Assembly (NCBI GenBank): GCA_000467715.1
Contig: AJFK01000576.1
Location: forward strand, 146,539 to 210,538
Direction: 5' to 3'
DNA length: 64,000 nt
From: Hysterium pulicare CBS 123377
Taxonomy: Eukaryota > Ascomycota > Dothideomycetes > Hysteriales > Hysteriaceae
Shown here: positions 60,735-64,000 of the stretch, piece after piece
Layout: each line of letters starts with the position of its first letter
Numbering within the stretch: position 1 is the stretch's first letter
The notes under the pieces: model-generated
What the model saw: only the letters and a program-made list of their open reading frames with translations
Told to the model about the DNA's origin: nothing
The model's database searches: none
Made by a program: the position numbers and the translations under genes

Positions 60735-61250
60735 CTTCCGTGCTACTTTTCCGGTTAGATTCGGAATGTGTAAGGAGCTTGAAATTCAATAAGCTTACTG
60801 AAATTAGCCTGAAAACAGTTGCCTCAGTAGTTATGCCTCGTCCGTGACAGGAACAAAAAGGGTCGTGGCTGATGTGTGGCTGATTGTCCAAGAGAAGGCT
60901 AGCCCGCTTCGCCAATCGACTTGGCGATCCAGGAACCCGGATTGTGGATTCACGTCATAGATCTATCGCATGCAGATCGCGCTCAGATCGCGCTTCCAGA
61001 TTTCCCTGCTCTACAAAGCTATTCTCCCCCTTTCCTCCTCTGCGTGATAAGAATCCACTCCCATCGTAGCAATTGACGCGTTGATGCACATATATATCTT
61101 TGAAGCCTCTTCATCGCCATCAAACATCATCGACTCCACAATCCTTTTCTTTCAAGCAAAATTTCTTTCGTTGACCCTCTCATAAATCCCAATCTTCCCC
61201 TCCCTGGCATAAAGTCCCATCTCCAAGTATATCGATCCTACACCAGCACA
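60735..61250. other. Promoter region of the photolyase gene
   Basis: Contains ATATATAT around 61090-61098 about 155 nt before the ATG and a pyrimidine-rich leader. Also likely hides the 5' exon of the minus-strand membrane protein. Confidence 0.35.
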
Positions 61251-63140
61251 ATGCCTCCAAAACGCAAAACATCTTCCACGGTCACCTACTCCGACGCCAC
61301 AGGCTCTAAATCCAACAAACGCTCTCGAACTTCCAAACCCCAGCCCAAAGCCTTCACCGTCGACGGAGCTCCCACTAATGGCGCAACTTCCCCCCAAATG
61401 ACCGAACATCAGTTCGACCACTCGCGCGCTGAGGAGCGCTCGGGAATCGTAGATCGAAGATTCTATCCCGCTGAAATGTCGGGCGAGCGATGTGCTATGT
61501 ACAATGCAGGCGAGATTCCGAAGCCCATGGCTGTTCTTTCGGATACTATCGATGAGACAAGGAAACAAAGAGAGAAGATTAGTATGGGAGAGTCAGTCAT
61601 ACATTGGTTTAAGCGCGATCTGCGGATTGGGGATAATACTGCACTGGGTCTCGCGGCTAAGAAAGCGAAAGAGAAGGGTGTGGGGCTGATATGTGTCTTC
61701 CTGGTTAGTCCGCAAGATTACGAGGCGCATATTACTAGTGCTGCGAGAGTGGATTTCGAATTGAGGACATTGAAGATCATGAAGGAGGAACTGGCTGAGC
61801 TGGATATCCCGCTTTATGTTGAGACTGTAGAAAAGCGCAAGAATGCTCCTGGAAGATTGTTGGAGTTGGTGGAGCAATGGGGCGCGAAGCATGTATTCTG
61901 CAATATCGAGTACGAAGTTGATGAGCTTCGGCGGGAAGAGAGACTGATCAGGGCCTGTTTGGCCCGGGGTATCGCATTCGACGCCGTCCATGATGATTTA
62001 ATCGTCCCGCCTGGAGCTCTGAGTACTGGTGCAGGGAAACAATACGCGGTGTATAGTCCCTGGTTTCGAGCTTGGCTAGCGCATGTGCATGCCCACCCGG
62101 AACTATTGAAGGAAGCCGAAATGCCTGGAAGGAATCCCTCAGGGTTTCGCACTAAGTACAAATCACTATTCAAGAGTGAAATACCTCCCGCACCCGAGAA
62201 CAAAAAGCTCGACAAAGAGGATAAAGAGAGATTAGAACATTTGTGGCCAGCTGGTGAACACGAAGCTCTCGAGCGCTTGGAGCGCTTCTTGATGGAGAAG
62301 ATTGGTCGATATCAGGCTACGCGTAACTTCCCTGCCGCTAACAGTACCGCATGTTTAAGTGTCCATCATAGCTCTGGGACGCTGGCTGTACGGACAAGTG
62401 TACGCATGGCTCGGAATGTCAACAGTACTAAGAAACTAGATGGCGGAAACGAAGGGATCAAAGGCTGGATATCCGAAGTCGCATGGCGTGATTTTTATAA
62501 ACACGTTCTGGCAAATTGGCCATATATCTGTATGGTAAGTCCTGCCAATTTTTCCACTCCTGTATCGCCTGCGCAATACTAATCCAAAGCACAGAGCAAG
62601 CCATTCAAATACGAATACACAAACATCGAATGGGAATATAACTCCACCCATTTTAGCGCCTGGTGCTCCGGCCACACCGGCTACCCAATCGTCGACGCCG
62701 CAATGCGCCAACTAAACAGCACAGGCTACATGCACAACCGATGCCGCATGATAACCGCCTCTTTCCTCGCCAAACACCTCCTCCTCGACTGGCGGCTCGG
62801 CGAACGCTACTTCATGTCGAAACTCATCGACGGCGACTTTGCCTCTAATAACGGTGGATGGGGCTTTTCGGCTTCCACTGGCGTGGATCCGCAGCCTTAT
62901 TTTAGGATCTTTAATCCTTGGTTGCAGAGTGAGAAGTTTGATCCTGAGGGTGAGTATATTAGGAAATGGGTGGTGGAGTTGGAAGATGTGGAGGGTGTGG
63001 CGGTACATGATCCTTATGGGAGGGGGCAGGGGGAGGTGGTGCAGAAGAGGGGGTATCCGAGGCCGATTGTGGAACATAAATTTGCGAGGGATAGGTGTTT
63101 GAAGAGGTATAAGGCTGGAATTAGGAGGGATACTGCGTGA
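61251..63140 (+). CDS. phr1: Class I CPD DNA photolyase
   Basis: Exons 61251-62534 and 62595-63140 encode 609 residues. A basic N-terminus (PPKRKTSSTV, SKSNKRSRTS) probably carries a nuclear or mitochondrial signal. The antenna-binding alpha/beta domain starts at VIHWFKRDLRIGDNTAL. The FAD domain has ISEVAWRDFYKHVLANWPYI, TGYPIVDAAMRQLNSTGYMH, RMITASFLAKHLLLDWRLGE, SNNGGWGFSASTGVDPQPYF and FNPWLQSEKFDPEGEYIRKW. These features mark CPD photolyases rather than cryptochromes or (6-4) enzymes; Neurospora PHR is a close relative. The enzyme splits UV-made pyrimidine dimers with blue light. The single intron lies between YICM and SKPFKYEY. It is the last gene before the AT-rich tract. Confidence 0.96.
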
Positions 63141-63298
63141 GCGGGGGAGGTTGACTTTTTGGGTTGGGATTATGTGAAGATAATAAGATGGATATTCAAT
63201 GGCTAATACATCTCCTTTTGGGTCTTATGGCTCCTTTTCCTACGCTTTTTATATTACTGACGGGTAGTATAGAAAGCATACTTTTTGGAAAAGCATAG

Positions 63299-63352
63299 AC
63301 TTGAAGCGCCTATTCAGAGCACCTACTTGAGGCACTGCATACTTGAAGCACC
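63299..63352 (+). repeat. Three degenerate copies of ACTTGAAGCRCC
   Basis: Copies start at 63299 (ACTTGAAGCGCC), 63325 (ACTTGAGGCACT) and 63341 (ACTTGAAGCACC). They lie between the photolyase and the AT-rich tract and may mark its edge. Confidence 0.55.
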
Positions 63353-63412
63353 ACTTCTTTAGAGTATGTCTACCCAAAGACTTTAAAGATAATTATTTTA
63401 AGACTTCCCCTG

Positions 63413-64000
63413 CTTATTTATTTAAAGTTATATTAGTAGTTATACTACTATTCCTTCCTAATTTAAAATAATAAATTAGCTTTGAAAAGTATTATTAATA
63501 CTAACCTACTTATCTTATAGCTATAAACTAGCTTTCTTTTCTTTTTTAAAATATATTTTATTCTTTTACTTTTTAAAAAAGTTTTATATTATATTATTTA
63601 AAGACTATAATACTCTTACTAAATATACTAAATTAGTTTTAATATAAAGTAAATAAAAAAATTACTTTATACTTTTATTTTTTTCTTTTCTTACTACTAC
63701 TAGTTTTTAACTATCTATTACTTTTTTTAAAACTACTTTACTTTAGTATACTACTTATTTTTAATAAAATACTAAAAGTATATATAAAATATAAAAGGTA
63801 GTAAATATAAAGTACTTAGAAAAGTAGTAGCTATTTAGTAATTTTTTCTACTATACTAAAAATACTAACTTAGTTACTATATTTTTCTAGTATCTATTTT
63901 CTTTATAAAATTTAGCTAAGCTCTTTATTAAAAAAAGTTTTTACTTACTATTTAATACTAATAGTTAGTAACTATTACTAGTAGCTAGTAAATATATTAG
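63413..64000. repeat. Extreme AT-rich, RIP-type tract
   Basis: From about 63413 to the end of the window the DNA turns almost pure A+T, with C and G mainly inside CTA/TAG, ACT/AGT, CTT/AAG and AGCT words. From 63485 to 64000 (516 bp) I find no CpA, no TpG and no CpG at all; only one TpG occurs between 63413 and 63484. Loss of CpA and TpG with gain of TpA is the known product of repeat-induced point mutation in ascomycetes. No coding sequence remains. It is probably the edge of a mutated transposon or an AT isochore that continues beyond the window. Confidence 0.85.

Follow-up and report, generated by a model that had tools for sequence, protein, structure and literature searches.

The window analysed here is a stretch of 64,000 nucleotides from Hysterium pulicare CBS 123377 (positions 146539 to 210538 of contig C420). 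Its last position, 64000, is also the end of the contig, and over its final 516 bp the dinucleotides CA, TG and CG are absent. The original prediction was that this tract had been mutated to saturation by RIP on both strands. The question is whether RIP accounts both for what has been lost and for what is left. We consider it very probable that a block of dispersed repeats, of which the tract forms the margin, underwent C-to-T mutation of both strands through fungal RIP until its preferred targets were exhausted. The RIP reading is right in kind and incomplete if classic CpA RIP is meant; overall, this is ordinary but unusually saturated RIP, a known phenomenon.

Composition and edge of the tract

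The following features lie at the right-hand end of the window.

61104..63140, plus strand: DNA photolyase gene in unique DNA, in two adjoining stop-to-stop frames (61104-62582 and 62583-63140), stop at 63138-63140
63299..63356, no strand: imperfect tandem repeat with a 13-bp unit (4.3 copies, 68% matches), located in unmutated DNA that separates the photolyase gene from the tract
63376..63484, no strand: transition zone, CA and CG already gone, TG at 63411 and 63483
63485..64000, no strand: saturated C-to-T tract without CA, TG or CG, reaching the contig end

The base composition of the 516-bp tract is A.382, C.103, G.058 and T.457, from which 20.2 CA, 13.7 TG and 3.1 CG would be expected; as had been claimed, there are none of the three. 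Over 20,000 shuffled versions of the tract their sum had a mean of 37.1 (sd 4.1) and a minimum of 22. Simple AT drift, already thought unfit as a cause in the original prediction, is ruled out by this result. C and G persist in the five contexts that had been named: CT (52, expected 24.2), AC (33, 20.2) and AG (29, 11.5) are over-represented, and GT (20, 13.7) and GC (6, 3.1) are kept. GA (2, expected 11.5), TC (13, 24.2), CC (1, 5.4) and GG (1, 1.7) are scarce, and the near-loss of CC and GG goes beyond what had been recorded before. Counted on both strands, 82 Cs remain that are flanked by a base on either side, and 80 of them precede T. With CA and TG both missing, and C and G left almost only as CT and AG, the tract has the pattern of C-to-T change on both strands.

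The two RIP indices proposed as a check were computed. The product index, TpA/ApT, is 116/57 = 2.04 and the substrate index, (CpA+TpG)/(ApC+GpT), is 0/53, giving the excess of TpA with loss of CpA and TpG that marks RIP-mutated DNA. Everywhere else in the window, in 2-kb steps, TpA/ApT is at most 0.88. Loose published RIP thresholds were passed elsewhere by 20 of 631 sliding 500-bp windows with a GC content of 41-57%, and these thresholds alone are therefore not specific. The wider interval 63413-64000 contains a single TG, at 63483. The strands of the tract are uneven, with 53 C against 29-30 G (10.3% and 5.8%); this imbalance has no counterpart in the tract of contig C40 (123 C, 125 G).

The photolyase gene was recognised by its domain matches (PF00875, 3.6e-40; PF03441, 1.5e-74) and by the match of its first frame to E. 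coli photolyase 1dnp (3.9e-31). Beyond it the GC content falls from 38% to 21% and then to 15% in the 100-bp bins at 63301, 63401 and 63501, and the change point lies at 63382, 242 bp beyond the stop, in agreement with the sharp transition within about 300 bp that had been described. Toward the contig end CG occurs for the last time at 63307, CA at 63375 and TG at 63483, and seven CC start positions near the edge lie between 63407 and 63505 or just before. In the two bins of 63201-63400, which lead from gene to tract, TpA/ApT is already 1.5-1.7. CA (3 and 7) and TG (4 and 5) are kept there, so no leak of mutation toward the photolyase gene is visible. The 13-bp tandem repeat is probably unrelated to the tract. 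No tRNA genes were found in the 64-kb window.

Related sequence at other contig ends

Parts of the tract recur at the ends of other contigs.

63924..63982, plus strand: piece in common with the end of contig C40 (59 bp, 92%); positions 63923-63977 also match the end of C16 (55 bp, 89%)
63953..63994, minus strand: piece in common with the start of C522 (42 bp, 93%), a less mutated copy on the opposite strand

The repetition that marks RIP-mutated DNA is thus found, as pieces of 42-59 bp at three other contig ends. The tract differs from the C40 end by 5 transitions and 0 transversions, from the C16 end by 5 and 1, and from the C522 start by 3 and 0. The starts of C40 and C306 belong to a second repeat family with the same behaviour: two alignments gave 13 transitions and 4 transversions, and the C306 copy is the more decayed. 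Ten alignments of degraded copies, which come from nine chosen pairs with an identity of at least 78% and are not independent, gave 45 transitions against 11 transversions; the least biased pair was C378 with C522 (3 and 4). Some of the AT matches between contig ends are of low complexity, and many such matches are among the pairs left out of this count. The Cs changed in the ten alignments were 22 at CpT, 12 at CpA, 9 at CpG and 2 at CpC. The excess of changes at CpT over those at CpA speaks against the RIP reading, although it is to be expected once CpA is exhausted; decay of CpT is visible in the more advanced copies.

No full-length copy of the tract was found; the assembly stops. Short common pieces of 30-95 bp make an origin of the tract in repeated DNA probable. 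The start of C522 (L008 1-130), a less mutated copy of the common repeat, still has CG and CA. Aligned to it (80%), the start of C395 shows 13 transitions, of which 7 are at CpG. Our guess is that the C522 start is the end of a DNA transposon.

The tract itself presumably descends from a transposon. No intact parent was found in the assembly, and no transposon domains were detected in the tract or the C40 start with stops read as X; a DUF92 match in this search (E 0.37, below its cut-off) was rejected as chance. The domain search of the assembly returned few transposon domains, namely 3 RVT_1 and 1 RVT_2. DDE_1 gave no match in the assembly and none in the control genomes either, so its absence from the assembly is not demonstrated.

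The outermost 150 bp had less than 25% GC in 14 of the 79 contig ends read. Among the 69 ends that had not been chosen for a match there were 7 such ends, against 0 of 1267 interior windows (Fisher 7e-10); the ten left out (L005, L006, L007, L008, L009, L016, L017, L056, L057 and L081) belong to contigs that had matched or to the window's own. At least two of the seven, the C14 start and the C9 end, are partly simple repeats. As the assembly is often cut at AT-rich blocks, its repeat content is probably underestimated, and much repeat DNA is probably missing from it.

AT-rich stretches also occur inside contigs, at about 1601-2000 of C450 (L020) and near 63600 of C464 (L036 1461-1680). The former, which fell outside the interior control because the first 2 kb of each locus were excluded, keeps 18 CA and 12 TG; not every AT stretch is therefore saturated. 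Four consecutive TTAGGG units were found on neither strand of the 596 contigs; the telomeres are either unassembled or of another unit.

Contexts lost and the source of the mutations

C-to-T mutation was simulated on the window's own DNA and run to its end for different sets of target contexts. With CpA as the only target the end point was 36% GC with CpG intact, 31% of the remaining C standing before G and 22% before C. Targeting CpA and CpG gave 25% GC with CpC left, CpA and CpC gave 27% GC, and CpA and CpT gave 14% GC with C left before G and C. When CpA, CpC and CpG were all targeted, the end point was 17% GC and every remaining C stood before T. The tract trimmed to 63454-63889, with 16% GC and 94% of its 67 C before T, fits this last case; pooling ten tracts gave 13% GC, with T following 83% of C. 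Classic CpA-only RIP, under which CpG and CpC survive, does not describe 516 bp with CG 0, CC 1 and GG 1, and is ruled out by the simulation as a full account, as is RIP at CpA and CpT.

Saturated RIP-like mutation of both strands, as originally predicted, has good support from the signature, the sharp edge, the recurrence, the transition-rich copies and the RID-like and DIM-2-like genes described below. Its reach is not fully accounted for: RIP that prefers CpA would by itself spare CpG and CpC, and their loss calls for either a broader set of targets or an additional process.

Kinetic fits, made on the premise that the window's other DNA reflects the composition of the lost sequence, gave values of rate x time for the window tract of 9.4 for CpA, 5.1 for CpG, 1.1 for CpC and 0.4 for CpT. 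The pooled tracts gave 5.4, 1.1, 1.1 and 0.7, respectively. When the tracts were bootstrapped 20 times, CpT had the lowest value in 17 runs and CpA the highest in 15, CpG exceeded CpT in all 20 and CpC exceeded CpT in 17; at least some put CpG as the fastest context. Fitted singly, CpA was fastest in 7 of the 10 tracts and CpG in L006, L007 and L052, and CpC fell below CpT in L006, L057 and L077.

A search of the assembly detected three loci with matches to C5 methyltransferases, four matches in all. At C582 an intron seems to divide the methylase domain, which spans two overlapping frames, and no BAH domain was found; from its motifs and the lack of BAH we take this gene to be RID-like. At the C109 locus a single frame of 1053 residues combines methylase, BAH and DUF7893, a make-up by which we take it to be DIM-2-like. 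At C507 the methylase part matches PDB 7r76 at 2e-42 and the SNF2-bearing part at 1e-129. The title of this entry is 'DNA repair protein Rad8'; we take it to be Cryptococcus DNMT5 and C507, hence, to be DNMT5-like. By labels based on domain make-up and motifs, the genome would appear to contain methyltransferases of the RID (C582) and DIM-2 (C109) types.

On the RIP reading, duplicated DNA would be recognised, presumably before meiosis, and the RID-like and DIM-2-like methyltransferases would be the likely enzymes directing C-to-T mutation, mainly at CpA. The loss of CpG and CpC as well would be due either to a less strict choice of target or to deamination of cytosines that DIM-2 and DNMT5 had methylated. 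Decay would be slowest at CpT, most of all at ACT and GCT, which would thus supply nearly all of the remaining C and G. Next to unique DNA the mutated block ends abruptly, and it is within this block that the assembly breaks.

The mutations could instead stem not from meiotic RIP but from methylated cytosine that deaminates slowly in the silent heterochromatin of vegetatively growing cells, with DIM-2 and DNMT5 as the drivers. DIM-2-like and DNMT5-like genes are present, CpG, which CpA-only RIP would leave, is wholly gone from the tract, and in Zymoseptoria tritici a functional dim2 promotes C-to-T mutation at CA in mitosis, according to the excerpt available (PMC8016269). We nevertheless regard this explanation as improbable, as the pooled fit has CpA disappearing fastest, as it does in RIP, and a RID-like gene is present as well. 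Even less credence can be given to plain drift, or to the tract being a satellite or centromeric, telomeric or mitochondrial DNA whose AT-richness has some other cause, despite its very high AT content and its position at a contig end. Against this stand the lack of a long tandem array, the best unit within the tract being 27 bp x 2, the continuity with a nuclear photolyase gene and the pieces in common with other contigs; a satellite was rejected on the first of these grounds. Drift is at odds with the complete loss of CA, TG and CG. A centromere built of RIP-mutated repeats is possible.

Among published systems, as given in the excerpts available of the papers cited, the closest depletion is that in repeats of Stagonospora (Parastagonospora) nodorum, where CpA, CpC, CpG, GpG and TpG are depleted and CpT is not among the contexts listed (PMC2621366). 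Similar contexts are lost in the two fungi; the depletion in S. nodorum is stated over repeat families, whereas here the loss of CA, TG and CG is complete over 516 bp. RIP most often acts at CpA. It is CpA-specific in Leptosphaeria maculans (PMC4352252), and in Z. tritici CpA was the site of 240 of the 242 mutations in duplicated regions (PMC10294615). Both resemble the tract in having C-to-T mutated repeats with CpA as the main target, but the tract has lost CpG and CpC as well. CpT is added as a RIP context in other fungi (PMC6180176), and RIP at CpA and CpT is described for Botrytis, Sclerotinia and Magnaporthe (PMC4352252) and for Anisogramma anomala (PMC10998396). These share with the present case C-to-T mutated repeats, there in two contexts, and RID-type genes; CpT is favoured in them and is the slowest-lost context here. 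Mutation at CpG and CpA is reported for Aspergillus repeats (PMC2621366, PMC4352252); the loss of these contexts is alike, but the tract is additionally without CpC and fully saturated.

As a nearly clean RIP end point, the tract shows which contexts the process spares. Its residue distinguishes CpA-only mutation, with its halt near 36% GC, from a process that takes CpG and CpC too. It may also be of use in separating decay linked to methylation from meiotic RIP where, as in this fungus, RID-, DIM-2- and DNMT5-like genes occur together.

The base upstream of surviving CpT

In the window tract TCT makes up 19% of the surviving CpT, and the C40 tract is close to it with 20%; about 42-45% would be expected from the fitted rates with four assumed ancestors. 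A share as low was reached in 0 of 2000 gene-derived replicates for the window tract and in 0 of 2000 for the C40 tract. Allowing for an effect of the upstream base raised the fit by 53 log units for the window tract, 119 for the C40 tract and 42 for six others; gene DNA served as the ancestor in these fits, in which single rates were unstable and only the gain in fit was used. The excess differs between the tracts, lying in ACT (64%) for the window tract and in GCT (33%) for the C40 tract. The two tracts are alike in the scarcity of TCT more than in one favoured survivor.

These figures might reflect a three-base process, in which C before A, C or G is hit, CpT with an upstream pyrimidine is lost and RCT (ACT, GCT) is spared, with AGCT and ACT/AGT as the end state, although we hold this only tentatively and think it rather doubtful. 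An odd ancestral sequence in one family could mimic the scarcity of TCT; this is less likely because the window and C40 tracts gave no match to each other. No flanking or trinucleotide rule of this kind was found in the excerpts of the literature searched, which included few subscription papers; a TpCpG context is mentioned there for Microbotryum (PMC4352252, PMC2621366). Of the 22 CpT changes between copies, 13 were at ACT, 4 at GCT, 3 at CCT and 2 at TCT. The changes at ACT speak against strict protection of RCT, yet ACT is the commonest site left.
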